DNA of 64,000 nucleotides, taken from an uncultured Endomicrobiia bacterium. GTDB taxonomy: Bacteria; Elusimicrobiota; Endomicrobiia; DTEH01. Made by a program: the position numbers and the translations under genes. Shown here piece by piece: positions 14,335-42,715 of the stretch; the stretch's first letter is position 1; the number at the start of each line of letters is the position of its first letter. The stretch spans positions 54,754 to 118,753 of the forward strand of contig CALDDQ010000010.1 of assembly GCA_937936785.1 (NCBI GenBank), in the 5' to 3' direction. Below the pieces are notes generated by a model. That model saw nothing but the letters and a program-made list of their open reading frames with translations. It did not search any database and was not told the origin of the DNA.

Positions 14335-15378
14335 ATGATTGAACTTTTTAATAAAACAAATTTTTTAATCACAATATATTTTTTAATTGGTGGCGTTGTT
14401 ATAGGTATTTTGTTAGAAAAAATTGTTTTAACTAAACTTAAACTATGGACAAAAAAAACTTCTTGGAAAGGTGATGATATAATTTTAGATTCTTTAAGAG
14501 GAACAACATTTATTTTGTGTATTGTAGTTAGTATACATTTGTTAGTAAATTTTTTAAAAATTGATTTACGGTTGTATGGATTGTTAAATAGAATTTTATT
14601 CATTGTAACAGTATTGGCGATATCTGTTGTTTCAATAAAAATTTCTATAGGTTTTATTGATATATATGCTAAACAAGTTGGTGGTGTAATTCTTTCCACT
14701 TCAATTTTTACAAATTTAACCAAAGGTATAATTTTGACTTTAGGAGGATTAATAGTTTTACAAACTTTGGGTGTGTCAATAACTCCTGTGCTGACAGCAC
14801 TTGGAGTTGGTGGATTAGCTGTTGCGTTAGCATTACAACCTACTCTGGCAAATTTATTTTCTGGGTTACATATCATCATTTCAAAACAAATTAGAATTGG
14901 CGATTATATAAAACTTCATTCCGGAGAAGAAGGTTTTGTTATTGATATTAATTGGAAAAATACTATTATAAAATCTTTACCAAACAATTTAATTATCATA
15001 CCAAACTCTAATCTTGCATCTGCAATTGTAACAAACTTTAACCTTCCTGAATCTGAAATTTCAGTTTTAGTCCAGGTCGGTGTAAGTTATAGTAGTGACC
15101 TGGAAAAAGTTGAAAAAGTTACAATTGAAGTGGCACAAGATGTCTTAAAAACTGTTACTGGTGGAGTAGCAACTTTTGAACCATTTATACGTTACCATAC
15201 ATTTTCTGATTTTAGCATAAATTTTTCTGTAATTTTACGTGCACAACAGTTTGTAGACCAGTATATTATTAAACATGAATTTATAAAAAAACTTCATAAA
15301 CGATACAAACAAGAAAATATTGAAATTCCATTCCCAATAAGAACTATTTATACAAAACATTACCCAGAGGAAAAATAG
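14335..15378 (+). CDS. small-conductance mechanosensitive channel (MscS family)
   Basis: Multi-TM plus ALGVGGLAVALALQPTLANLFSGLHIIISKQIRIGDYI, MscS signature. Confidence 0.94.
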   Translation: MIELFNKTNFLITIYFLIGGVVIGILLEKIVLTKLKLWTKKTSWKGDDIILDSLRGTTFILCIVVSIHLLVNFLKIDLRLYGLLNRILFIVTVLAISVVSIKISIGFIDIYAKQVGGVILSTSIFTNLTKGIILTLGGLIVLQTLGVSITPVLTALGVGGLAVALALQPTLANLFSGLHIIISKQIRIGDYIKLHSGEEGFVIDINWKNTIIKSLPNNLIIIPNSNLASAIVTNFNLPESEISVLVQVGVSYSSDLEKVEKVTIEVAQDVLKTVTGGVATFEPFIRYHTFSDFSINFSVILRAQQFVDQYIIKHEFIKKLHKRYKQENIEIPFPIRTIYTKHYPEEK

Positions 15379-17579
15379 TGCGTTTAATAATTGTTTCTAA
15401 CAGATTACCTTTTACAATAAAAAAATTAAAAAACAAAATTGAATTTAAAGAAAGTTCTGGCGGATTAACCACAGGAATAAGTTCTTATTTAGAATCGCTA
15501 AAAAGTTCCTCTTTCATACAAAAGGAACATCTATGGATAGGCTGGTGTGGAACTACTATTGAAAACAATTTAGAATCTTCTGTAAGGTCAAAATCTTTAA
15601 ATCATTACAATGCTTTGCCAGTATTTTTAGACCAAAATATAATGGAAAAATTTTATACTGGATTTTGTAATAAAACTATCTGGCCACTATTTCATTGTTT
15701 TGCTTTGTATACTCATTATGATAAAGATTTTTGGGATTCTTACAAACAGGTCAACGAAATATTTTGTGAAAATATTATTAAAATATTAAAACCAACTGAT
15801 ATTGTCTGGATTCATGATTATCATCTAATGTTACTACCAAAACTTATCCGAGAAAAAATACCACAAGCACAAATTGGATTTTTTTTGCACATACCATTTC
15901 CCCCTCATGAAATATTTTGTTTATTGCCAAAAACTTGGCGCACAGAAATTTTAGAAGGATTACTTGGTGCTGATCTGGCAGGATTTCATACCAACGATTA
16001 TACACAAAACTTTTTCAAATGTGTTCTTAGAATTTTAGGATTGGAACAAAACCTTGGTACAATAGTTTTAAATGACAGAATATTTAGAGCAGACACTTTC
16101 CCTATGGGAATACATTTTAATAAATTTTTTGAATCTGCTATTCTTCCACAGACAATAAAAGAAAAAAAACTTTTTGCCCAAATATTAAAAAACGTAAAAA
16201 CTATTCTTTCTGTTGATAGATTAGATTATACAAAAGGAATATTAAACCGTCTTGAAGGATTTGAGCTATTTTTAGAAAAAAATGTTCAGTGGCATAAAAA
16301 AGTAACTTTTTTATTAATGGTTATTCCTTCTAGAATCGGAGTAGACAACTATCAACGAATGAAAACAAAAATAGATGAATCTGTTGGAAAGATTAATGGA
16401 CGATTTGGTACTATAGACTGGACACCTGTAGTATATCAGTATAAACACTTACCTTTTCATACTCTTGTTGCACTATACAATATGTGCGATGTAGGATTAA
16501 TCACACCACTAAGAGATGGTATGAACCTCGTTGCAAAAGAATTTCTTGCATCAAAAACTGATAAAACTGGTGTTTTAATATTAAGCGAAATGGCTGGAGC
16601 AGCAAAAGAATTAGGTGAAGCAATAATAATTAACCCTAATCATAAAGAAGAAATTGCAAGTTCGATTAAAGATGCTTTGGAAATGCCATACCAAGAACAA
16701 CAACAACGTAACGAAATTATGCAAAAACGATTGCAATCTTATGATGTTATACATTGGGTAGAAGATTTTATTACCGAATTAAACGATGTGAATAAAACCA
16801 AAACAAATTATAATACAAAAATTTTATCAATAACAGAAAAAAATAATTTACTAAAAAATTTTAAAACAGCAACTAACAAAATAATATTCTTAGACTATGA
16901 TGGGACTTTAGTGCCATTTTTTAATCAACCAGAAAAAACTTTGCCTGATACTGAAGTGTTTCAGATTTTAAGTACTTTATCTAAAAGTTTGTCTACTAAT
17001 GTAGTTATAATCAGTGGTAGAAACAAAATTACTTTACAAAACTGGTTTAAAATTCCAAATATTTCTTTAGTTGCTGAACATGGGGCCTGGATTAAAGAAT
17101 CAAATAAAGATTGGAAACTAATAAAACCAATAAATTCTGATTTCAAATCAAAGTTAATTCCTATATTAAAAAGTTTCTCAGACAAAATACCGGGTTCTTT
17201 TGTGGAAGAAAAAGAATTTTCTATTGTTTGGCATTACAGAAATTCAGATACAGAACTTGCTTCAACAAGAGCTAAAGAATTATTAGATGATCTTATTTTT
17301 CTTACTGCAAACATGGATTTACAGGTCTTACAAGGAAATAAAGTTATTGAAATTCGTAATTTTGGCATTAACAAAGGTATCGCTGTAAATTATTTTATTT
17401 CAAAAAATAATTTTGATTTTATTTTAGCAATAGGAGACGATTGGACTGATGAAGATATTTTTAAATCTCTACCACCAAATGCTTATTCAATAAAAGTAGG
17501 TTTGTCTCCTTCGTATGCAAAATTTAATTTGGAAGATTATAAAGAAGTTCGAAAACTTTTATTTGAACTGTTAAAATAA
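15378..17579 (+). CDS. bifunctional alpha,alpha-trehalose-phosphate synthase / trehalose-phosphatase
   Basis: OtsA GT20 domain (SNRLPF...SSGGLTTG, WIHDYHLMLLPKLIREK, PLRDGMNLVAKEF) fused to OtsB HAD domain (FLDYDGTLVPFF); GTG start overlaps mscS stop. Confidence 0.95.
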   Translation: MRLIIVSNRLPFTIKKLKNKIEFKESSGGLTTGISSYLESLKSSSFIQKEHLWIGWCGTTIENNLESSVRSKSLNHYNALPVFLDQNIMEKFYTGFCNKTIWPLFHCFALYTHYDKDFWDSYKQVNEIFCENIIKILKPTDIVWIHDYHLMLLPKLIREKIPQAQIGFFLHIPFPPHEIFCLLPKTWRTEILEGLLGADLAGFHTNDYTQNFFKCVLRILGLEQNLGTIVLNDRIFRADTFPMGIHFNKFFESAILPQTIKEKKLFAQILKNVKTILSVDRLDYTKGILNRLEGFELFLEKNVQWHKKVTFLLMVIPSRIGVDNYQRMKTKIDESVGKINGRFGTIDWTPVVYQYKHLPFHTLVALYNMCDVGLITPLRDGMNLVAKEFLASKTDKTGVLILSEMAGAAKELGEAIIINPNHKEEIASSIKDALEMPYQEQQQRNEIMQKRLQSYDVIHWVEDFITELNDVNKTKTNYNTKILSITEKNNLLKNFKTATNKIIFLDYDGTLVPFFNQPEKTLPDTEVFQILSTLSKSLSTNVVIISGRNKITLQNWFKIPNISLVAEHGAWIKESNKDWKLIKPINSDFKSKLIPILKSFSDKIPGSFVEEKEFSIVWHYRNSDTELASTRAKELLDDLIFLTANMDLQVLQGNKVIEIRNFGINKGIAVNYFISKNNFDFILAIGDDWTDEDIFKSLPPNAYSIKVGLSPSYAKFNLEDYKEVRKLLFELLK

Positions 17580-19531: not shown

Positions 19532-20242
19532 TTATTTGATAAACTCTTTCAAATTCCCAAATTTATAATTGTTTTTAATTGCATATTCAATGAAGATTTT
19601 TAATGATTCTACTGTTTTTTTACGATTCTGTCCTCCATCATGAAATAAATAGATTCCACCTGGTTGTAAATTCTTACAGTATTTATCAGCCATCTCTGCT
19701 GATGTAATATTTTGCCAATCAAAACCAAAACACCAGTTTATCACAGTTAAATTATATTTCTTTAAATATTCATCCATCCATGACCTATAATAACCATATG
19801 GCATTCTTAAATATCTCGGTTTAATACCTATGCTATCGTAAACTTCTTTTATTGACTGTTCTATCTGAAAAATCAATTCTTGCTTAACTTCGTTTAAACT
19901 TTGTTTTTTTTGTAACTGATAAAAATTTTTGTGTTCATAACAATGAATTCCAATTTCATGCCCTTGAGAATAAATTTGTTTTAACAAATCTTTTCTGTAT
20001 TTAACCAATTCGCCTAAAACAAAAAAAGTTGATTTTATATTATGTTTATTTAAAATTTCTAAAACTTCTTTTGTCCATGGACCTGGACCATCGTCAAATG
20101 TTAAAAAAACTATTTTTTCTTGTGTTGGAATCCTTGTAACAAAATATTGTGAGTATTCCTGGTTAGAAAAAAGTATCGTTTTAAAAAATAGTATCAGAAA
20201 ATTTATTGTAATTTTGTATGCAATATTTCTATTAGAAATCAT
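19532..20242 (-). CDS. polysaccharide deacetylase (NodB homology domain)
   Basis: VFLTFDDGPGPWTKEVLEILNKHNIKSTFFVLG, HEIGIHCYEH, LRMPYGYYRS. Confidence 0.94.
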   Translation of the reverse strand: MISNRNIAYKITINFLILFFKTILFSNQEYSQYFVTRIPTQEKIVFLTFDDGPGPWTKEVLEILNKHNIKSTFFVLGELVKYRKDLLKQIYSQGHEIGIHCYEHKNFYQLQKKQSLNEVKQELIFQIEQSIKEVYDSIGIKPRYLRMPYGYYRSWMDEYLKKYNLTVINWCFGFDWQNITSAEMADKYCKNLQPGGIYLFHDGGQNRKKTVESLKIFIEYAIKNNYKFGNLKEFIK

Positions 20243-20252
20243 AATTTTACTT

Positions 20253-21887
20253 TTAAAATTCTAAACTAAATTTCCTATATCCATAATATAACATAGTACC
20301 TAAATATAATATGTTTATTAAAAAAAACCCTATGCTGTGAAAAAATATTGTTTTAAACAATACCGTTTGTCCTAAACTATATTGTCTAACAGGATAATAT
20401 GATGATGCTAATATTAAAATTATATACCCTAAAGATAATATTATAAACATCAAACCACCGAACGAAGTTTCTATTTGAACAATATCGTTAAATTCTTTTT
20501 TAGGTAATAAAATTCCCAAACAATAACCTGTTATTGTTAAAACAAACACAGATATTGTAATTATAAAAAATCCAAATAACCACATAACAAAATTTAATCC
20601 TAAAACAATATTTGATAACAATAAAACAATCCAGGCAAGTACTAATAATATAGGTAAAAATAAAAATATTTTTGAACAAAATATTTTATAAACTTTTATT
20701 GGAGCAGATTTTAATATCCACAAAGTTCTATATTCTATACTATGCTGGACAAAAACAAACCTTAATAACATCGCAGAAATAATAAACATTATACTACCAA
20801 AGTTAAAAAAAGATACCAACACTTTTACATATTGATAATTAATAGGAACTTTTGATATACTGAATATGTATATAATAATTAATGCTATAATAATAACCAT
20901 TTGTGTCCATTGAACAGGTTCTCGTAACAACAATTTTAAATCTTTCATAATTACTGCTTTAACCTGAGAATTAAAAATTTTTTTTTGATCAATTATTATT
21001 TTTTTTCTTTTTTTAAATCCTTTATTTAAAAATAAACCATAATAAAATAATTTTTTTGATGTTTTTAACAATATAAAAATACTCATAGTTGAAAATAAAA
21101 ATAATTTTATAAAATTAATATATATTAAATCATATTTTTTACTAACAACACCTCTAATTATTTCTGTTAACCACCAAGAAGGAGACCATCTTGCAACTGG
21201 TTTCGACATAAAATCTAAATATTGAACAATTTCTTGAAAACGATCAGGGTTTAAAAGTTTTTCTGGTTCTGTAAATCTAAACACTGAATAACTTATTGTA
21301 ACTAATAAAATAAATAATACAACTGTAACATCTTTTACCTTCTTAGAAGGAATTAAATACGAAAGTATTATTGAAATAAAAACTCCAATAGAAATAGATA
21401 TCAACATTTTTAATAACATTGCCAAATAAACTGTAATAAATTCAACAAATGTAATATTTTTAACATATGCAAATGCAATCAAAAATGGTGTTAATAACAG
21501 TAAAAGCATCCATGTAGATTTTATATATGTTGAAATATATTTTATAAAAAATATTTTATTTAACTTTATTGGAAATGAAATTAAAAATTCTTTGTCTTCA
21601 CAACCATATATTGTAGAAAAAGAATTTATCAGTGAAGAAAATATCGTCATTACAAAAGATGTTAACATTGTTAGTGCAATTAATCTTAACATAAATATTG
21701 TACCTATTATTGGTATAGAAAAAATATATATTATTGCATAGTATGATATTATATAAGCTCCTATTAAAAAAAATATCCCAATAAAAGAAATAAAAACAAA
21801 CCTAACTTTTTCTTCTTTTGTAGAAAATTTTAAATTGTTTAAAAACATTATAAAATTAAGTTTTATTATTTCCCAAATCATATACAA
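20253..21887 (-). CDS. ABC transporter permease (ABC-2-like)
   Basis: Large multi-TM protein overlapping the adjacent ABC ATPase gene by 32 nt. Confidence 0.78.
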   Translation of the reverse strand: MYMIWEIIKLNFIMFLNNLKFSTKEEKVRFVFISFIGIFFLIGAYIISYYAIIYIFSIPIIGTIFMLRLIALTMLTSFVMTIFSSLINSFSTIYGCEDKEFLISFPIKLNKIFFIKYISTYIKSTWMLLLLLTPFLIAFAYVKNITFVEFITVYLAMLLKMLISISIGVFISIILSYLIPSKKVKDVTVVLFILLVTISYSVFRFTEPEKLLNPDRFQEIVQYLDFMSKPVARWSPSWWLTEIIRGVVSKKYDLIYINFIKLFLFSTMSIFILLKTSKKLFYYGLFLNKGFKKRKKIIIDQKKIFNSQVKAVIMKDLKLLLREPVQWTQMVIIIALIIIYIFSISKVPINYQYVKVLVSFFNFGSIMFIISAMLLRFVFVQHSIEYRTLWILKSAPIKVYKIFCSKIFLFLPILLVLAWIVLLLSNIVLGLNFVMWLFGFFIITISVFVLTITGYCLGILLPKKEFNDIVQIETSFGGLMFIILSLGYIILILASSYYPVRQYSLGQTVLFKTIFFHSIGFFLINILYLGTMLYYGYRKFSLEF

Positions 21888-22623
21888 TTTTATTTTTTGT
21901 AATATGTAAATATATTTTTTCCAACGAACTATCCGAAGATAAATTGTTATTTTGGATTAAATCCTGTTTTGTTCCACAAGCAATTATTTCTCCATTAGTA
22001 ATTATTGCTATTCTATTTGCTATAGATTCTGCTAAATCTAACAAATGTGTACACAAAATTACTGTTTTTCCTTGTTTAGATATTTCTTTAATATAACTTT
22101 TTAAAAAGTTAATACTTTTAGGATCTAACCCTATTAGCGGTTCGTCTAAAATATATATTTCTGGATTACGCAAAAGTATTGACATTAATAACAATTTTTG
22201 TTTCATTCCTTTAGAATAAGAATCTATTATTTGATCAATTACTTCTACCAATTCAAATTGTTCTAAATAATAAACAAACATTTTTTCTTCAAACTTTGTC
22301 TTATAAATAGATTCCACAAAACTTAAAAACTCACGACCTGTTAATCTGTTATAAACATACGGTTCATCAGGCAAATATCCTATCATTTTTTTTATTTCCA
22401 AATTTTCAGGTGACATATGCATAGATAAAATACTTACACTTCCAATGTCAGGTTTTAAAATACCAGATAATATTTTTACAGTTGTAGTCTTTCCTGCACC
22501 ATTAGGTCCTAAAAACACAAATACTTCTGCATAAAATATTTTTAAATTTATATTTTTTAACACTTCTTTTTTATCATATTTTTTAAAAACATTATAAATC
22601 TCAATTATTGGTTTGTTATTCAT
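21856..22623 (-). CDS. ABC transporter ATP-binding protein
   Basis: Walker A GPNGAGKTTTVKIL, SYSKGMKQKLLL signature, YILDEPLIGLDP Walker B. Confidence 0.95.
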   Translation of the reverse strand: MNNKPIIEIYNVFKKYDKKEVLKNINLKIFYAEVFVFLGPNGAGKTTTVKILSGILKPDIGSVSILSMHMSPENLEIKKMIGYLPDEPYVYNRLTGREFLSFVESIYKTKFEEKMFVYYLEQFELVEVIDQIIDSYSKGMKQKLLLMSILLRNPEIYILDEPLIGLDPKSINFLKSYIKEISKQGKTVILCTHLLDLAESIANRIAIITNGEIIACGTKQDLIQNNNLSSDSSLEKIYLHITKNKIVYDLGNNKT

Positions 22624-22646: not shown

Positions 22647-23240
22647 TTATATTAGTATTGTTAATACACCTGCAGATATTATTGGTAAGATAAAATTATC
22701 ATCAACAGGTAAAGGGACAAACTCTATCGCACTGGCAACCAACGAGCCAACCAATGCTATATTCCACGGAAAATAAATTATTCCACAAAAAAATGATATA
22801 ATAAAAAATGATATACTTCCTTCTACACTTTTTCCCCGAGAACCAACTTTTATCCTACCAAAAAGAACTCCCATAATAGCAGCTATACTATCACCAAAAA
22901 CAAGATATAATAAACTAACCGTTACAACTGATTTGTTATCAGAAAATAGTAGTATGGTTAAAAAAGCTCCTGACAACGTCCAAATTAATGTTGAAACATT
23001 TTCTCGTTCTTTTTCTCTATATGTTCCTTCAAACAAAGACAAAAATAATCTGTTTACAGAAGGATATAGTAATCTTAATGTTTCTAATATAAGATCTAAA
23101 ATTACTAATGTAGCTGAAGCAGTCAATGCAACTCTGTATGGAATAAGATTATATATAACAGGATAAAGGATTGTTGCAAAATGCAAACTTTTTCGTTTAA
23201 ACTCCTGCGTTACTTTAATTGATAAATTTTTTTCCATCAT
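22647..23240 (-). CDS. diacylglycerol/polyprenol kinase-like membrane protein (SEC59/DGK1/VTE5 family)
   Basis: EFKRKSLHFATILYPVI; LVFGDSIAAIMGVLFGRIKVGSRGKSVEGSISFFI. Confidence 0.82.
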   Translation of the reverse strand: MMEKNLSIKVTQEFKRKSLHFATILYPVIYNLIPYRVALTASATLVILDLILETLRLLYPSVNRLFLSLFEGTYREKERENVSTLIWTLSGAFLTILLFSDNKSVVTVSLLYLVFGDSIAAIMGVLFGRIKVGSRGKSVEGSISFFIISFFCGIIYFPWNIALVGSLVASAIEFVPLPVDDNFILPIISAGVLTILI

Positions 23241-23940
23241 AAATACTCTCTATAAAATATTTTATTGTTTTAGTTAAAAAAATTAACGTATTTTTATATG
23301 AAATTTTAGTCTCAAAGTAAATCTTACTCATCACTTCTGCAAAAGTTATATTAACAGGTAACAAAAATAAAATTATACAAATTAACATTACCAGATTAAT
23401 TATAAAAATCACTACTAATGAAAACATCAAACCTGAAATATTAAAATCAGATTGTCCAACAGATATTGTATATGCAGTTAAAACTATGTGAAACATTACT
23501 GTTATCCCTAATAAAAAAATAAATATCTCTATTTTTAAATTTACACTTAAAACATATTTTATTATTCCCCACAAAATTACTAAAAATATTGAATATACTG
23601 GAACAAAATATGGCGATAATGCAATAAATGTATTAACTCTATTTACAGTTACAGCACCAGAATTTTTTTTTAATTTTACTTTACTAACTTTTGCTCCACA
23701 AATCCATGCACTTATCATATGGACAAATTCATGTCCAATAACATATATTCTTATAGGATTATAAAAACAAAAATGTATTATTAAATAAAAAATTAATCCA
23801 CTTAAAAATATTACCACAAATCTATCTGAAAACTCTAATTTTTGTATTATGAAAATGAATACTTTAAGAAAACCATAACAAAATGGTAACAATATTATAC
23901 CATAAAAAAATTTAAATAATTTACTATTTAACATCTTCAT
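23215..23940 (-). CDS. M50-like membrane metallopeptidase family protein
   Basis: HEFVH (HExxH) within a TM segment: IRIYVIGHEFVHMISAWICGAKVSKVKL; multi-TM. Confidence 0.65.
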   Translation of the reverse strand: MKMLNSKLFKFFYGIILLPFCYGFLKVFIFIIQKLEFSDRFVVIFLSGLIFYLIIHFCFYNPIRIYVIGHEFVHMISAWICGAKVSKVKLKKNSGAVTVNRVNTFIALSPYFVPVYSIFLVILWGIIKYVLSVNLKIEIFIFLLGITVMFHIVLTAYTISVGQSDFNISGLMFSLVVIFIINLVMLICIILFLLPVNITFAEVMSKIYFETKISYKNTLIFLTKTIKYFIESIYDGKKFIN

Positions 23941-25711
23941 TATAAAGGACGACCCTGTTTCTTCCCATCATTTTTGCTAAATATAACATTTGGTCAGCTT
24001 TATTTATTAAATCTTCTGTAGTATCTTTTTCATAAAATTCTTTTGCACCAACACTTATTGTTATCTGTATTTTTTTATCCAACGCAGTAAACTCTGCAGT
24101 TTCAACATTATTTCTTATTCTGTCAGCTATTTTTTCTGCCCAAAAACGATCCGCTTCAAGCAATATTATTGCAAACTCTTCTCCACCATAACGACATACT
24201 ATATCAGTATCTCTTACCGAAGATAATAAAATCTTGGCAACTTTTTTTAATATCTTATCTCCTACAATATGACCATAAGTATCATTAACCTTTTTAAAAT
24301 AATCTATATCCAACATTAACAAAGAAAATATTGTCCCATACCTTTTAGCACGACGCACTTCTTGTTCTAATCGTGTAATAAAATATCTGTGAATATACAA
24401 TTTAGTTAAACCATCTGTTATAGCAAGTTCATATAACTGAATATTATGCAAAGCTAAAGAAATATGACTGGTCAAATTTTGTAACAAAGATAACGAATAG
24501 TTATTAAATTTTTTAAGTTTTGTTTTTTGTTCTATTAACACAAATCCCAAAAATTTTTCTCTAGCAACCAAAGGTAAAAATAACATATCTTTATCCAGTT
24601 CAATGTTCGGTAATAAAAAATTTATAGTATTACCACTAAATATTTTTGATTGTGGAATTTCATGTTCTTTTAATTTTAAATACTGTAAAATAAATTCTTG
24701 ATTAATAAATATTTTGTCTAAAGTTTTGTTTAATGAATTATTTTTTAATATAAACTCTTTTTCTTCATCATCATAAATAAATACGAATACTTTGTCTACA
24801 TCAACTAATCCTTTTATAAACTCTGGTATACTATTTATCAATTTTGTGCTATCTAAAAATTCAGAAATGTCTAAAGTAATTCTGTGTAATAAATATAAAT
24901 CATTAATTGATTTTTCTAATTTCAAATTTATTTCTTTAAACTCTTTTTCTAAATTCTCTTGTTTTACAATTTTTGCACCCATGCCCATCTCAGGACATAC
25001 TGTTAAAAAATCACACCAAACACAGCTATTATTTGGTTTGGGAACAAAATTGTCATCTAAACGAATTTGTTTTATTATGTTTATTATATTTTTTTGTACT
25101 AATTCTAAATGTTGTGGTGTTTTTATAGTAGTAATTTTTTGATTATATTGCAGATATATTTGAGAAACTTTTTTAGGGAAAAGTTTTAATTTTGTCCAAC
25201 AAGCGTATGCTGATATTCCTGATTGTAAATCTTGGTCAAACTCTTCCTGAGTAGGGACTGAACCACTAGTCTTATAATCAACAATTTCAACTCCACCTTC
25301 AATTTCGTCTATACGATCAATTTTTCCAATAATATAAAAATCATCAATACGTACACGAAAATATTCATTAATATATCTTGGAATTATATTCAAACTCTGT
25401 CCTTGGGTAAAGTTTTTTAACCATGTAATAGCTCTGTGTTTATAGTCTGTTTCCTCTTCATTAGTAGAATATCCTATAGAAATCCAATTTTTGTTCAACA
25501 AATTTATTATTGTAGTATAATTTCTTTTTTGTTCTTCAAGAATAAAAAACTCTGATAATACTTTGTGAAGAGTTTCACTTAAAGAAATCGTGGCATTTTG
25601 TTTTTTATATAACTGTCCTAATTTATCTATATAGTATAATTTGAATTTTAACGGACATAAAATATATGTACTAATACTTTGTGAATCAAAATATTTAGAT
25701 ATTTCATTCAT
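23924..25711 (-). CDS. PD-(D/E)XK nuclease (AddB/Cas4/RecB-like) - GAF - GGDEF fusion protein
   Basis: IGKIDRID...VEIVDYKTSG, Q..SAYA, C19 + CVWCDFLTVC (CxxCx5C) then GAF-like region then GGDEF domain (RYGGEEFAII) with upstream RxxD I-site. Confidence 0.9.
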   Translation of the reverse strand: MNEISKYFDSQSISTYILCPLKFKLYYIDKLGQLYKKQNATISLSETLHKVLSEFFILEEQKRNYTTIINLLNKNWISIGYSTNEEETDYKHRAITWLKNFTQGQSLNIIPRYINEYFRVRIDDFYIIGKIDRIDEIEGGVEIVDYKTSGSVPTQEEFDQDLQSGISAYACWTKLKLFPKKVSQIYLQYNQKITTIKTPQHLELVQKNIINIIKQIRLDDNFVPKPNNSCVWCDFLTVCPEMGMGAKIVKQENLEKEFKEINLKLEKSINDLYLLHRITLDISEFLDSTKLINSIPEFIKGLVDVDKVFVFIYDDEEKEFILKNNSLNKTLDKIFINQEFILQYLKLKEHEIPQSKIFSGNTINFLLPNIELDKDMLFLPLVAREKFLGFVLIEQKTKLKKFNNYSLSLLQNLTSHISLALHNIQLYELAITDGLTKLYIHRYFITRLEQEVRRAKRYGTIFSLLMLDIDYFKKVNDTYGHIVGDKILKKVAKILLSSVRDTDIVCRYGGEEFAIILLEADRFWAEKIADRIRNNVETAEFTALDKKIQITISVGAKEFYEKDTTEDLINKADQMLYLAKMMGRNRVVLYNEDVK

Positions 25712-27075
25712 TAACGTTTTAGAAATATTCCTTTAGGGTTCTTTAGTAATAATTTATTATTGTCAAAAACTAATTTTCCTTTAAATATTATTTTTTCAAT
25801 ATTATATTCATACTTCATATTTTCATACGGTGAATAATCAGATATAGTATGTGCATCACAGTTTCTAAAAAAATACTCTTTCGTTTTTTTTATAATTAAA
25901 ACATCTGCATCACTTTGAAACTTTACAAAATCACCTTTTTTAGGATATAAACCAAATATTTTTGCTGGGTTAGAAGTTAGAAGTTCTACCAACTTCTTTA
26001 CATAAATTTTTCTTTTAATCCCTTCGGACAAAACACTTCTTAACAAAATTGATGTTCCTGGTAGACCCATAGGAATTTTTGTAAAATTATTTCTATTTTT
26101 AAACTTATCTCTTTTTGAAAATACACAATTGTCTGTAGCAATAACATCTATAAAATTATTATTAATACTTTCCCATAGAAATTTTCTATCTTTAAACGAT
26201 TTTATTGCAGGACAACAAGTGTATAAATAATTATTATTTTTTTTAAACACGTTATCTGTAAAAGTTAAATATTGTGGACAAGTTTCTGCATATAATTTAA
26301 ATTTTTTATTTTTTTTCTTCTTCCATAATATAATTTCTTTCATAGCATCTTTGCTACTAGTATGAACAATATAAATAGCAGTATTAAATTTTTTTGCATA
26401 TAAAATAAACCGTTTTACTGCAGAGTGTTCGGCTGTGGATGGTCGTGATAATGGAAAATATTTAATATCTAATTTTTTTTTAGATTCTAATTTTTTTATT
26501 ATTGGTTCAATAATATCACTATCTTCACAATGTGCTTCTAAAATAACATCTTTATATTTTTGTAGTTCTTCAAGTATTCTATATAATTTATTATTATCTA
26601 TATACCAACTTTCAGTCTTAGGTAGAAATATCTTAAAACTTTTTATCCCAGAATTTATTATATATTTTAACTGTTTTGGTGTTTCTTTATTAAAATCTAC
26701 TATTTGAGAATGAAAAGTATAATCAACAAAACTTTTTCTTGCTTCTTGCAATTTACGTTTTAATGCTTGAATCATATTTTCTTTTTTTTCTGGTATAACA
26801 TAATCTATAACAGTAGTAATACCATTACATAATGCTGTTTTACTTCCTAAAATAAAATTTTCTAACGTTTTACTCCCATATCCTTTTAGCCCAAAATGAA
26901 CATGAGCATCAATTATACCTGGAATAACTATTTTATTTTTTGCGTCTATGACTTTATGTTTTTTAGGAAAGATTTTTTTTTTGACAGAAACAATTTTGTT
27001 GTTTATAATCTCTATATCATAATTACCAAAGTAGCTTTTTGAAATAACAAATCCATCCTTTATTAACAATTTCAT
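25711..27075 (-). CDS. dihydropyrimidinase/hydantoinase-like cyclic amidohydrolase
   Basis: IDAHVHFG (HxH), SFKIFLPK, LEAHCED, IYIVHTSS, VIATDN metal-site motifs. Confidence 0.83.
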   Translation of the reverse strand: MKLLIKDGFVISKSYFGNYDIEIINNKIVSVKKKIFPKKHKVIDAKNKIVIPGIIDAHVHFGLKGYGSKTLENFILGSKTALCNGITTVIDYVIPEKKENMIQALKRKLQEARKSFVDYTFHSQIVDFNKETPKQLKYIINSGIKSFKIFLPKTESWYIDNNKLYRILEELQKYKDVILEAHCEDSDIIEPIIKKLESKKKLDIKYFPLSRPSTAEHSAVKRFILYAKKFNTAIYIVHTSSKDAMKEIILWKKKKNKKFKLYAETCPQYLTFTDNVFKKNNNYLYTCCPAIKSFKDRKFLWESINNNFIDVIATDNCVFSKRDKFKNRNNFTKIPMGLPGTSILLRSVLSEGIKRKIYVKKLVELLTSNPAKIFGLYPKKGDFVKFQSDADVLIIKKTKEYFFRNCDAHTISDYSPYENMKYEYNIEKIIFKGKLVFDNNKLLLKNPKGIFLKR

Positions 27076-27082
27076 CTAAAAA

Positions 27083-27439
27083 TTATTTTTTTGTAATAAC
27101 TTTTTTAAGTATATTTTTTTTATAGACAAGTGTTTTAGGACAAATTTTTTCTTTTTCATTCAAATATGCAAAAGACATAATTATTATCTCATCACCAACT
27201 TCGCCTAACCGTGCAGCACCACCTTGCAAACTTACAATTTTTGAACCACGTTTGCCTTCTATGACATAAGTTTCAAACCTTTCTCCATTAGAAACATTTA
27301 CAACAAGTACTGTTTCAAACGGCAATATATTCGCTTTTTCAATAAAATCTAAATCTAATTTTATGCTACCACTATACTTCAAGTTTTTTTCCGTAACACA
27401 TAATCCTTGTATTTTTGATTTTAAAATTTTTACAAACAT
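27083..27439 (-). CDS. panD: aspartate 1-decarboxylase
   Basis: LKSKIQGLCVTEKNLKYSGSIKLD (GS self-cleavage site), GERFETYVIEGKRGS. Confidence 0.93.
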   Translation of the reverse strand: MFVKILKSKIQGLCVTEKNLKYSGSIKLDLDFIEKANILPFETVLVVNVSNGERFETYVIEGKRGSKIVSLQGGAARLGEVGDEIIIMSFAYLNEKEKICPKTLVYKKNILKKVITKK

Positions 27440-33205: not shown

Positions 33206-33829
33206 TTAAAAATTAAATCCTAACAACTTTTTAACTTTGTCCCGGAAAGGTATTAGTTCTATCGGTTTTGGTAAATAATCATCTGCTCCTGAAGAAAATA
33301 TCTTTGCCTTGTATTCTGGAGAATCATATCCCGTCACAGCAAAAATTTTTATATGTTTCAATTTTGGATTTCCTTTTATACTTGCACAAACTTTAAATCC
33401 ATCAATACCAGGTAGTAACAAATCTAAAATAATTAAATCTGGCATATATTCTCCAACAACCATTCCTGCTGAAAATCCGTCAAAAACAGAGTTTACCTCC
33501 ACCTGACTAAAAGGTTTTAACACATCTTTCACAAAATCGTGCACTTCAGGTTCATCATCAATAACTAAAACTTTATAAACCAAAATCTTTTCAATATTTT
33601 CTTTTACTTCTTTTATTGAATGTCCTTGGTCTAACATCTCTCTGATACGTTTTAATCGCAAAACACATTCTTGTTGATTATATAATCTAAACCCACCTTC
33701 CATATAGTCTGATGCACGTAAAAGTTCCAAATCGGTATAATATTTTATGGTAGAAATTGGTAAACCACACTTTTCTGCTAATTCACCAATTTTTAATAAT
33801 CCTAGTTCTAACCGTTTTTGTTTGTCCAT
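33206..33829 (-). CDS. MerR-type HTH fused to response regulator receiver domain
   Basis: KIGELAEKCGLPISTIKYYTDLELL...GGFRLYNQQ (MerR) then KVLVIDDEPEV...LIILDLLLPGIDGF...DDYLPKP (REC). Confidence 0.92.
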   Translation of the reverse strand: MDKQKRLELGLLKIGELAEKCGLPISTIKYYTDLELLRASDYMEGGFRLYNQQECVLRLKRIREMLDQGHSIKEVKENIEKILVYKVLVIDDEPEVHDFVKDVLKPFSQVEVNSVFDGFSAGMVVGEYMPDLIILDLLLPGIDGFKVCASIKGNPKLKHIKIFAVTGYDSPEYKAKIFSSGADDYLPKPIELIPFRDKVKKLLGFNF

Positions 33830-35287: not shown

Positions 35288-37513
35288 TTAACCAACTACG
35301 GGTTGTAAATCTAAAATTACAAGTTTATACCCATCTTTAGCAATTTCATCTTGTTCAAATTGTCCCACTACATTAAAATATACAAAGTTTTTTATTATAT
35401 CTCCAATATCTGGTATATCCCAACAAACACTTTCTATCACAGATTCAGAATTTTGCAATACCAACTTTGCATACTTTTTGCCCAAACCTAAATATTTCCA
35501 GCTTGTAATCTTTACATCTTTTAATAAAAACATTGGATACGGATTTTCAGGACCACAAGGTTCTAACAAATCAAGTTCTTTTACTAAACTTAAACTTAAT
35601 TCTTTAGTAGAAAGTTCTGTGTCAATTACTAATGTAGGACTTACCATTACAATTTCTTTTTGTAACTTTTTAATTTCTGTTCTAAAAAATTCGATTTTAT
35701 TTTTTTGTATTGTGAGTCCACAAGCATGTTCATGTCCGCCAAATTTTATAAATAAACTTTCTAACCTTTTCAAAGTTTCATAAATATTTATTCCTTTGGG
35801 TGACCGGGCAGCTCCTGTGGCAGAATCTTCTTCTGCTATTAACAAAATTACTGGACGACCAAATTCTTTCATTATATGATTAGCAACAACACCGGTAACT
35901 CCATGTTCAACATTTTCTGCCACAACTACAAGTATCAAATCATTTTCCAGGTCGCATTGTTGTTCAATTAAATCATAAAATTTGTTAAGATTAGTTTCTT
36001 GTAAACTTTTTCTTGCATTGTTTATGTTTAATAATTTGTTAAAAAATTCTTTTGCATTGGAAATATTCTCTGATAACAAAAATTCTACTGCAATCTCAGC
36101 TTTTTGCATACGACCGGCCGCATTTAAGGTCGGAATAACATACCATGAAATACTTTCTGAATCTAAGAATGATGTTTTTCTTTTTAAATGTTCCATCAAA
36201 ATCTGACATGCAGGTTTGCGTGAACGACAAAATGTTTCTAAACCTTTTTTTACAATAATTCTGTTATCTTCAACTAAAGGCATTATATCAGATATCGTCC
36301 CTAAAGCAACAATATCAAGATTATCTTCTATAAAAAACCTTATTTTATTATTCTTGAAATAATATAAATAATTAAACAGTTCTATAGTTGCAGAAACATC
36401 GTTTAATGCACGGTGTGACGGTTGATTATTAAACATAAACTCCAATGACATAGATTTTAAAGAATGTGATTTAAAGGGAAAATATTGTCTTGAAATTGCT
36501 AATGTATCTATAACTTCATTTTTTAACACAGGAAATCCATGTGCACTTAATGCATTATTTATAAATGGTAAGTCAAAATCTGCATTGTGGACTATTATTA
36601 TAGAATCTTTAACAAAATTAATAAACTTAGGCAAAACATCCTTTATTGAAGGATGTCCAATAACCATTTCGTTACTAATTCCATGTATTTTGACAACATT
36701 TTCCGGAATTAAATTCTGTGGTTTTACAAGTGTTTGAAAAGTTTCGTATGGGAAAAAATTTTTTATTTTTGCTGCTGCAATTTCACATATTTCATCTTCC
36801 GTAGGTATCAATCCTGTAGTTTCAATGTCAATTACTGTATATTCCTTGTTATAAATGTTTTCATCATAAGAAATCATTAACCCCCAAACAAGTTTTAACA
36901 CTACACCTACCCCAGCAAGATCCCTAAAACCTAAATATTCTTTTAAATATGGATTTATTACCGGAATATTTAATTCTTTCCTTAAACTATAAATTTCTTC
37001 TGGTACCTCGTGATGATCAGTAACAACAATATCAATACCAAGATCTCTAATGTGCCTAATCTCATTTATAGCAGAAATACCACAATCAACTGTTATTATT
37101 AAATTTATTTTGTCTTTATACTTATCTATAGTTTCAATGTTTAATCCATAACCTTCTGTCTGTGGTATATACCATGAAACTTTTGCGCCTAAATCTTTTA
37201 ATGTCTTATATAAAAGTGTTACAGAAGTTATTCCATCAGCATCTCTGTCACCCCAAATTAAAATATTACTCCGGTTGTCAATATGTTTCTTTATTGTCTC
37301 TATAGCAAAAACCATATCAGAAAATAAAAAAGGATTATTTAAATAAATTACGTCAGAAGTTATAAAACGTTTAACCCTTTCCTCATCAGAAAATCCTCTG
37401 TTTATCAATATCTTTGCAAGTATAGTAGAAATGTTAAACTTATTTGATAACTCTTCTACAACAGTTTTTTCTGGTTCAGGTTTTGTCTCCCATTTGTATA
37501 ATAATCTTGTCAT
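35288..37513 (-). CDS. recJ: single-stranded-DNA-specific exonuclease RecJ with embedded DnaQ-like DEDDh exonuclease domain
   Basis: RecJ motifs GDRDADGITS, ITVDCGIS, VVTDHHEVPE, DLAGVGVVLKL, then DIETTG...HNADFD...HRALND (DEDDh), then DIVALGTISDIMPLVEDNRIIVKKGL and FGGHEHACGLTI. Confidence 0.93.
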   Translation of the reverse strand: MTRLLYKWETKPEPEKTVVEELSNKFNISTILAKILINRGFSDEERVKRFITSDVIYLNNPFLFSDMVFAIETIKKHIDNRSNILIWGDRDADGITSVTLLYKTLKDLGAKVSWYIPQTEGYGLNIETIDKYKDKINLIITVDCGISAINEIRHIRDLGIDIVVTDHHEVPEEIYSLRKELNIPVINPYLKEYLGFRDLAGVGVVLKLVWGLMISYDENIYNKEYTVIDIETTGLIPTEDEICEIAAAKIKNFFPYETFQTLVKPQNLIPENVVKIHGISNEMVIGHPSIKDVLPKFINFVKDSIIIVHNADFDLPFINNALSAHGFPVLKNEVIDTLAISRQYFPFKSHSLKSMSLEFMFNNQPSHRALNDVSATIELFNYLYYFKNNKIRFFIEDNLDIVALGTISDIMPLVEDNRIIVKKGLETFCRSRKPACQILMEHLKRKTSFLDSESISWYVIPTLNAAGRMQKAEIAVEFLLSENISNAKEFFNKLLNINNARKSLQETNLNKFYDLIEQQCDLENDLILVVVAENVEHGVTGVVANHIMKEFGRPVILLIAEEDSATGAARSPKGINIYETLKRLESLFIKFGGHEHACGLTIQKNKIEFFRTEIKKLQKEIVMVSPTLVIDTELSTKELSLSLVKELDLLEPCGPENPYPMFLLKDVKITSWKYLGLGKKYAKLVLQNSESVIESVCWDIPDIGDIIKNFVYFNVVGQFEQDEIAKDGYKLVILDLQPVVG

Positions 37514-41155: not shown

Positions 41156-42715
41156 ATGACTAACAAAAATAATTTGTTTAAAAATTTATTCTATTTTTTA
41201 GTACTGTTTTGTTCATTCACAATTTTTTATTTTACAAAAAATTTATTATTAACTTTACTTTTTATTATCTTACCTATAGCTTTTCATTTGTATTATGATT
41301 ATAAACTAAAAAAACTATTTTATTATGAAAAAATATATAAAACTCTCGCTTATATGCCAAAATATCACGAACTAAAACCATTGCTTGATTTTGTTGTTCA
41401 CTCGGTATCCGATATTTTATCTGCAGAAAGATCTAGTTTGTTCCTTATAAATAAAGAAACAAAACTTTTATGGACAGTTGTTGCCGAAAATCTTGAAATT
41501 AAAGAAATTTCAGTACCTATCGGCGAAGGAATTGTTGGACATGTTGCACAAACAGGAACTTTGGTTTGTATAAATTCTGATCCTTATAAAGATAAAAGAT
41601 TCTTACCTCTAATTGATCAAAAAACTGGTTATAGAACAAAAAATTTAATTTGTGCTCCGGTATTTGATTCTAAAAAGAAAATTATTGCTGTAATTGAAGT
41701 TTTAAACAAAAAATGTAAACCCGGATTTTCTAAAAAAGATGAAGATATTTTAAAAATTTTCTGTACAGAAATTGGGAATACATTAACAAATGTTTATTTG
41801 TACGAATCTTATCAACAACTTTTGGAAAGTTTATTTAAAGCATTTGCTACAGCAGTTGATGCTAGAGATCCAGTTACAAGAGGTCATTCTATCCGAACAA
41901 TGAAATATGCATTTAACATTGCTACGGCATTAAATCTTTCATCTAATGAAATAAAAATAATCGAATACGCATCTTTACTGCATGATGTTGGAAAAATTGG
42001 TATTCCAGATAATATATTGTTAAAATCAGAAAAATTTACTAAGGAAGAATATGATGTTATGAAAACGCATGTTTTAATGACTAAAGAAATTTTATCAAAA
42101 ATTTCTTTCCCGGAAGAATATCGTGATGTTCCTCTTATTGCATCATTACACCACGAATTTTTAAATGGTTCCGGGTATCCTTTTGGTTTAAAAAGTAATG
42201 AAATTCCTCTTCTTGCAAAAATTGTTTGTGTTGCAGATATATATGATGCTTTGATAAGTTATGATAGACCTTATAAACCTCAAGTAACACAACAAGATGC
42301 TTTAAAAGTTTTGTCCTATATGGCTGACGAAGGAAAACTTGATAAAGATATAGTTAACCTTTTTATCGAAAAAAAATTATATCAAATTGAACGTAGAGAA
42401 TTTGTTCGTGTTGATAAAGAATTTGCATTTTCTTGGCGAAAACTTGGTCCTGATGATATAAAATCTGTTTTACCAATAATTGCAAAAACTAAAAATATTT
42501 CTGCAGGAGGGCTTAGGTTTTTAACAAATGAAAACCTGGAAACAAACACATTTGTTGAAGTTGAATTATATTTACCAAATCATACAATCGAAACTTTAGC
42601 AAAAGTTGTTCATTGTAAAACTTTATCAGAAAATGACACAAAAGAAATCGGCATAATGTTTATTAATCTTCCAAAAGATACTGAAGTTAGGTTAACCCAA
42701 TATTTTAATAACTAA
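41156..42715 (+). CDS. membrane-anchored GAF - HD-GYP - PilZ protein (predicted c-di-GMP phosphodiesterase)
   Basis: N-terminal TMs; GAF-like; HDVGKIGIPD...HHEFLNGSGYPFGL (HD-GYP); C-terminal RREFVR and NISAGG PilZ motifs. Confidence 0.92.
   Translation: MTNKNNLFKNLFYFLVLFCSFTIFYFTKNLLLTLLFIILPIAFHLYYDYKLKKLFYYEKIYKTLAYMPKYHELKPLLDFVVHSVSDILSAERSSLFLINKETKLLWTVVAENLEIKEISVPIGEGIVGHVAQTGTLVCINSDPYKDKRFLPLIDQKTGYRTKNLICAPVFDSKKKIIAVIEVLNKKCKPGFSKKDEDILKIFCTEIGNTLTNVYLYESYQQLLESLFKAFATAVDARDPVTRGHSIRTMKYAFNIATALNLSSNEIKIIEYASLLHDVGKIGIPDNILLKSEKFTKEEYDVMKTHVLMTKEILSKISFPEEYRDVPLIASLHHEFLNGSGYPFGLKSNEIPLLAKIVCVADIYDALISYDRPYKPQVTQQDALKVLSYMADEGKLDKDIVNLFIEKKLYQIERREFVRVDKEFAFSWRKLGPDDIKSVLPIIAKTKNISAGGLRFLTNENLETNTFVEVELYLPNHTIETLAKVVHCKTLSENDTKEIGIMFINLPKDTEVRLTQYFNN

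Follow-up and report, generated by a model that had tools for sequence, protein, structure and literature searches.

The fusion gene and its domains

The window, meaning the whole 64,000-nucleotide stretch of DNA that we analyzed, is placed in Elusimicrobiota, class Endomicrobiia, by its named relatives. A run of genes on its minus strand contains an ORF in which a nuclease, a coiled-coil linker, a GAF domain, and a GGDEF domain are joined in one chain. The genes of this run are listed below.

27083..27439, minus strand: PanD (aspartate decarboxylase), same gene run (PF02261, E 5e-38)
25711..27075, minus strand: dihydropyrimidinase/dihydroorotase-like amidohydrolase (DHPase); its stop overlaps the start of the fusion gene
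23924..25711, minus strand: fusion protein, PD-(D/E)XK nuclease + coiled-coil linker + GAF + GGDEF, 595 aa, ATG start
23215..23940, minus strand: M50B-like membrane metalloprotease-like protein (HExxH); overlaps the fusion gene by 17 bp
22647..23240, minus strand: SEC59/dolichol-kinase-like membrane protein, named by eye, unmatched in Pfam and NCBIfam; follows the M50B-like gene in conserved order in most of the class
21856..22623, minus strand: ABC transporter ATPase, gene order conserved
20253..21887, minus strand: ABC-2-type permease (PF16949, E 3e-69), gene order conserved
19532..20242, minus strand: polysaccharide deacetylase (PdaB/NodB-like), gene order conserved

Within the fusion gene we located the following features, all on the minus strand.

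24986..25690, minus strand: PD-(D/E)XK (RecB/AddB/Cas4-type) nuclease domain, residues about 8-242 (Pfam, AF2, Foldseek)
25655..25657, minus strand: C19, first ligand of a predicted iron-sulfur staple, invariant in 12/12 fusions
25271..25318, minus strand: nuclease active-site core GKIDRID...VDYK (D132, D145, K147), invariant in 12/12 fusions
24995..25024, minus strand: C230-x2-C233-x5-C239, the other three ligands of the predicted staple, invariant in 12/12 fusions
24863..24961, minus strand: predicted 33-residue linker helix 251-283, nuclease to GAF (AF2 model)
24443..24844, minus strand: GAF-like domain, residues 290-423 (Pfam GAF_3, E 5.7e-8, above the curated cut-off), the least conserved domain
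24419..24502, minus strand: helix 404-431, GAF to GGDEF (AF2 model)
23954..24424, minus strand: GGDEF diguanylate cyclase domain, residues 430-586, with a GGEEF active site (Pfam PF00990, E 5.4e-46, above the curated cut-off)
24203..24214, minus strand: RxxD product-inhibition site (I-site), R500-D503, in 11/12 fusions, lost in G011

A preliminary description had proposed this ORF without giving a strand. The ORF is real, running from its ATG at 25711 down to 23924. The same description had read the N terminus as a PD-(D/E)XK fold with an AddB/Cas4-type staple of four cysteines, and both Pfam and Foldseek agree: residues 12-240 match PDDEXK_1 (PF12705) at E 4e-23, above the curated cut-off. 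The motifs cited for it, GKIDRID (D132), VDYKT (D145, K147), and C19 together with CVWCDFLTVC (C230-x2-C233-x5-C239), are present. A single N-terminal cysteine combined with Cx2Cx5C toward the C terminus of the domain is the pattern of the AddB/Cas4 iron-staple subfamily, of which a zinc-bound relative, 3L0A, is also described (PMC3466216). The Q-x6-Y motif that had been assigned was wrong. The RecB-type QxxxY motif is here Q163...S167, with the tyrosine replaced, and the complete motif is thus absent from the window protein. Across the 12 fusions we compared, Q163 itself is invariant and the last position is Y in eight and F in two (Y or F in 10/12), C in one, and S in the window protein. Since QxxxY varies within the PDDEXK_1 family, membership rests on the fold and the catalytic residues.

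The C-terminal assignments held as well. Pfam places GAF_3 where a GAF region had been suggested, and the GGDEF domain, described as intact and with an I-site, matches PF00990, keeps its metal- and guanine-binding residues, and carries RDTD (R500, D503) five residues before GGEEF. We also considered and rejected two narrower assignments. Membership in CRISPR Cas4 fails on score (TIGR00372 gave 28.5 bits where the cut-off is 65), and no cas genes lie beside the fusion; as a defense system, it drew only generic Cas4-type matches from PADLOC.

The AF2 model of the full-length protein has a mean pLDDT of 90.5 and a pTM of 0.53, which means that the single domains are confident and that their relative placement is not confidently predicted. 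In this model, helices 251-283 and 404-431 stand in series between the three domains, and the former starts about 11 residues past the last cluster cysteine. Modeled alone, the nuclease domain reaches a pLDDT of 94.1 and a pTM of 0.87. Because searches of PDB sequences with the nuclease gave no match (phmmer) or weak matches only (profile search), we turned to fold comparison. Foldseek matched the nuclease domain to AdnAB (E 1.5e-9), AddB (6e-6), Cas4-family ACE1, Dna2, Cas4, and Exo5, at about 10-18% identity to these solved structures. The best structural matches of the C-terminal part were the phytochrome-cyclase IsPadC, Dcsbis, and PleD; in the model, GAF, coil, and GGDEF are arranged in a way that resembles IsPadC and Dcsbis, which are sensor-gated cyclases.

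Distribution, origin, and gene neighborhood

We surveyed 341 Elusimicrobiota genomes, counting the genome of the window among the carriers. The full-length architecture occurs in 11 of them, spread over eight genera and five families, three in the window's class (f1, f4, f5) and two outside it (f28, f29). A twelfth fusion, from the Elusimicrobia bacterium CG08_44_26 MAG (L081), lies beyond this survey. With full-length homologues in 10 surveyed genomes besides that of the window, and with their catalytic residues invariant, chance is a poor account of the architecture. The 12 proteins come from two major branches of the phylum, and with so patchy a spread the fusion is dispensable in most of Elusimicrobiota. 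Standalone GAF-GGDEF relatives occur in the phylum too. In a tree of 71 Elusimicrobiota GAF-GGDEF sequences, the GGDEF halves of all 12 fusions form one supported clade (98), so the fusion probably arose once. The nuclease halves also group together (63/77, below support), inside a supported set (99/92) that includes four standalone nucleases of family f2 and G331. The simplest reading of these trees is a single fusion event followed by loss or transfer.

We found no fusion outside Elusimicrobiota in the checked ORFs on genome contigs of the best 80 of 245 nuclease relatives, and the only ORFs with a GGDEF motif there were fusions already in the set. Nor was there one at E 1e-95 in 334 Omnitrophota genomes, with a query whose positive control came from Elusimicrobiota, or among 80 viral loci, where the best matches covered the C-terminal part only. 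The open-licence papers searched contained nothing relevant on a GGDEF-nuclease fusion or on c-di-GMP in Elusimicrobiota, in agreement with the earlier remark that no well-characterized pathway is known to combine a nuclease fold with c-di-GMP synthesis in one chain. We know of no diguanylate cyclase whose input is a nuclease. Each half comes from a known family; we are aware of no earlier description, in those papers or otherwise, of their union, of how it is conserved, or of its link to a membrane protease gene.

The closest sequence relatives of the fusion nuclease are standalone Elusimicrobiota PD-(D/E)XK proteins, each about 250 aa long; the ones from f2 and G331 belong to the 99/92 clade. 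Unlike the fusion, they lack GAF-GGDEF and lie near a PHP gene, dnaX, or rsmD rather than before the M50B-like gene. The neighbor in f2 is a TIGR00375 PHP-type gene, whose product we take to be EndoQ-like, and in G331 a dnaX-like gene lies upstream; these contexts point to DNA work.

Other arrangements of this nuclease fold turned up as well. A two-unit PD-(D/E)XK protein of about 630 aa (L199 6224-8134, in the window's own genome, G000:C8; also L031 and L032) is encoded between a ComEC-like gene, which in L031 carries a staphylococcal-nuclease domain, and a metallo-beta-lactamase gene, and is possibly linked to DNA uptake. Its C-terminal unit is intact, and its N-terminal unit keeps the cysteines and is without the catalytic lysine, so this residue is readily lost where catalysis is dispensable. 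In Ozemobacter and Methylomirabilis, proteins of about 1300 aa (L116 5541-9521, L110 1894-5856, L134 7815-11681) have five tandem units, all with the cysteines, of which only the last keeps every catalytic residue, including Q. Elusimicrobiota nucleases of families f24-f26 (L178-L185) are extended at the C terminus by about 140 aa; a scan of one of them, L182, gave no Pfam match over the extension.

The fusion gene lies directly upstream of the M50B-like gene in 11/11 surveyed fusion genomes, with a gap of -32 to +88 bp and an overlap in 8/11. The M50B-like gene itself is found in 300 of the 341 genomes, nearly always as a single copy, and its HExxH is invariant in 11 homologues. PF13398 matches the G007 protein with 34.2 bits (E 2.8e-8; cut-off, 26) and the window protein with 13.4 bits (E 0.06). 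In the window's class, this gene stands first in an M50B-SEC59-like-ABC-ABC-deacetylase operon of envelope type. Upstream of the fusion are DHPase/PanD in f1 and panC plus a gene for a 187-aa membrane protein in f28/f29; in several f29 genomes, genes for ribosomal L21/L27 and obgE follow the fusion/M50B-like pair. In f29 genomes without the fusion, panC is the immediate neighbor of the M50B-like gene, with the gene for the 187-aa protein also absent from the locus. In two genomes of the family to which the window belongs, G001 and G004, the locus likewise has neither the fusion nor DHPase. (G004 has a cas1-cas2 pair, L234 2037-3323, some 3 kb upstream of its M50B-like operon.) The M50B-like operon of G049 starts with genes for two unfused GGDEF proteins of other clades, which supports a link between c-di-GMP and this operon. 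L081 is the exception, with YceG (MltG-like) upstream and PmbA/TldD downstream of the fusion. No repair, recombination, or defense genes adjoin the fusion in the neighborhoods we examined, and a role in defense or repair therefore gains no support from context.

We then considered the rest of the c-di-GMP circuit. PilZ, MshEN, and HD-GYP (HD_5) proteins are present in 13/13 genomes checked, 11 with the fusion and two without, and EAL proteins in none of these 13. The window itself encodes, at 41156-42715 on the plus strand, a membrane protein with GAF-like, HD_5 (HD-GYP-type), and PilZ domains, probably a c-di-GMP phosphodiesterase that carries a receptor domain of its own. Three other composite proteins of the window are worth recording: a RecJ in which a DnaQ-type exonuclease (RNase_T, residues 227-380) follows the DHH domain as an insertion (35288-37513, minus strand), a protein that joins a MerR DNA-binding domain to a response-regulator receiver domain (33206-33829, minus strand), and trehalose-6-phosphate synthase and phosphatase in one chain (15378-17579, plus strand).

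Conservation of the fused domains

Ten nuclease residues are invariant in 12/12 fusions: the four cysteines (C19, C230, C233, C239), H49, D132, E142, D145, K147, and Q163. The same is true of the metal and guanine residues of the GGDEF domain (D468, N476, D485, G509-F513). The earlier statement that both catalytic halves look intact thus extends to the whole set, and the fusion apparently combines a working DNA-cutting domain with a working c-di-GMP maker. Mean pairwise identity across the fusions is 44% for the nuclease, 30% for GAF, and 53% for GGDEF; GAF is the variable part. In G336/G338, the sole unsaturated pair, dN/dS is 0.070 for the nuclease, 0.078 for GGDEF, and 0.148 for the linker plus GAF. 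Because its residues are invariant, its dN/dS is low, and the lysine is lost in the contrasting ComEC-linked protein, it is very probable that the nuclease of the fusion is retained for its catalytic activity, or at the least to bind metal and DNA at the active site. A nucleic-acid sensor without catalysis, as the preliminary description had offered, is less likely, given catalytic residues kept in 12/12 fusions in a superfamily that loses the lysine elsewhere in the phylum.

The connection between the domains is less constant. The linker between nuclease and GAF differs in length by about 12 residues in f4, and a rigid relay from the nuclease is thus not conserved. Between G336 and G337, which belong to one genus, the linker-GAF-GGDEF DNA is 81-95% identical and the flanks on both sides mostly 71-85% or more, versus 61-67%, with saturated synonymous sites, in the nuclease segment. 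The apparently exchanged segment in G337 corresponds to L189 about 1620-2260; the flanks are unchanged. It looks like recombination swapped the nuclease domain alone, a single case in metagenome assemblies.

A possible DNA input to c-di-GMP signaling

Cyclic nucleotide messengers report the state of DNA in a few known cases, such as DisA with c-di-AMP and type III CRISPR with cyclic oligoadenylates. The explanation we put first, tentatively and at somewhat less than an even chance, is that the nuclease gates the diguanylate cyclase, which would make the fusion a c-di-GMP analogue of DisA; the protein may convey the state of DNA so as to control the cell envelope. The N-terminal iron-sulfur PD-(D/E)XK domain would bind and trim DNA ends or single strands, its presumed substrates, and its bound or idle state would be relayed via the linker helix and then GAF to the GGDEF dimer, where it would switch c-di-GMP synthesis. 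We infer, then, that a DNA-engaged nuclease controls the cyclase. The messenger would act on PilZ and PilB-type MshEN receptors, and the presumed local output would be the co-encoded M50B-like membrane protease, together with the envelope operon in the window's class. This proposal is consistent with the confident three-domain model and its two helices in series, with catalytic and cysteine residues invariant across two major branches, and with a nuclease dN/dS (0.07) close to that of GGDEF (0.08). It also agrees with the DNA-related context of the closest standalone nucleases, the resemblance of GAF-coil-GGDEF to IsPadC and Dcsbis and of the nuclease fold to AdnAB, ACE1/Cas4, AddB, and Dna2, and the clades formed by the GGDEF (98) and nuclease (63/77) halves. 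The receptors and HD-GYP proteins in all fusion genomes, the M50B-like gene next in 11/11, and the G049 GGDEF pair at the same operon fit the output side. Several observations count against it: the lack of a repair, recombination, or defense gene beside the fusion, the altered f4 linker and the pTM of 0.53, the QxxxS of the window protein, the patchy spread (11/341), and the fact that GAF could be the true input and the nuclease a passenger.

We judged three other functional explanations to be less likely; among them, redox sensing and control of the nuclease by c-di-GMP are serious competitors. The next in order, itself unlikely, makes the iron-sulfur cluster the sensor: oxidation, exposure to nitric oxide, or the iron state would loosen the staple that holds the N- and C-terminal portions of the nuclease domain together, the coil would signal to GGDEF, and DNA cutting would be secondary. 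All four cysteines are invariant, the last lies about 11 residues before the linker helix, and the domain depends on the cluster for its structural integrity in Cas4 and AddB (PMC3466216). However, redox sensing leaves the invariance of H49, D132, D145, K147, and Q163 in 12/12 fusions unexplained, and the same staple occurs in catalytic nucleases of this family that are not redox sensors. The divergence of GAF (30%, against 44% and 53%) is what one would expect of a ligand-binding part, and it speaks for a protein in which GAF senses a small ligand and controls GGDEF, with the nuclease a separate enzyme joined for co-expression. Standalone GAF-GGDEF relatives in the phylum and the unfused GGDEF pair heading the operon in G049 fit this as well, but the nuclease stays joined in one gene, one architecture, and one locus across distant families, and we rank this explanation third, as improbable. 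Domain order alone does not fix the direction of signaling, so c-di-GMP, or GTP/c-di-GMP at GGDEF and the I-site, might instead switch the nuclease and make DNA degradation follow the c-di-GMP state. Retention of the I-site in 11/12 fusions fits such control, yet G011 has lost RxxD though its active site is otherwise intact, the neighbors are envelope genes, and GAF-coil-GGDEF follows the usual input-to-output order of sensor-cyclases, in which the N-terminal domain is normally the input; this fourth explanation is doubtful. An assembly or annotation error is hardly credible. All the named genomes are metagenome assemblies, but 12 independent genomes carry the same full-length uninterrupted ORF, 11 of them with the same neighbor gene, which excludes the assembly chimera raised in the preliminary description.

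If the nuclease-gated coupling is true, c-di-GMP signaling gains a DNA input and is tied to a conserved membrane protease in a little-studied phylum. A broader claim, which we consider rather unlikely, would make this a new class of signaling: a c-di-GMP synthase would have a working iron-sulfur exonuclease as its input module, DNA that is free or broken (from genome damage, phage, or transformation) would be read during its degradation, and the messenger and a dedicated intramembrane protease would act on the envelope.

Each part of the fusion has counterparts among known systems. The iron-staple nucleases AddB, AdnAB, Cas4, ACE1, Dna2, and Exo5 share its fold, four-cysteine pattern, and catalytic residues; none of those compared here has GAF-GGDEF. 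The sensor-gated cyclases IsPadC (a phytochrome), Dcsbis (GAF-GGDEF), and PleD share the N-terminal input, the helix, and the C-terminal GGDEF with RxxD, but in the fusion the input is a nuclease plus GAF, not light, PAS, or a receiver. Cas10 also has a GGDEF-like cyclase fold, tied in type III CRISPR to nuclease function. However, the fusion protein gave only weak matches to Cas10 models, its GGDEF is a canonical diguanylate cyclase domain, and no type III genes are near. DisA, like the fusion, combines a DNA-binding domain and a cyclic-dinucleotide synthase in one chain, and branched DNA suppresses its c-di-AMP synthesis (PMC8583203). It differs in being a diadenylate cyclase of unrelated fold, with HhH rather than a nuclease and with neither a nuclease site nor an iron-sulfur cluster; domain searches of the fusion protein, in turn, found no DAC and no HhH. 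By analogy, then, DisA is the closest working counterpart of the proposed nuclease-gated cyclase rather than its relative, and the likeness is functional only.
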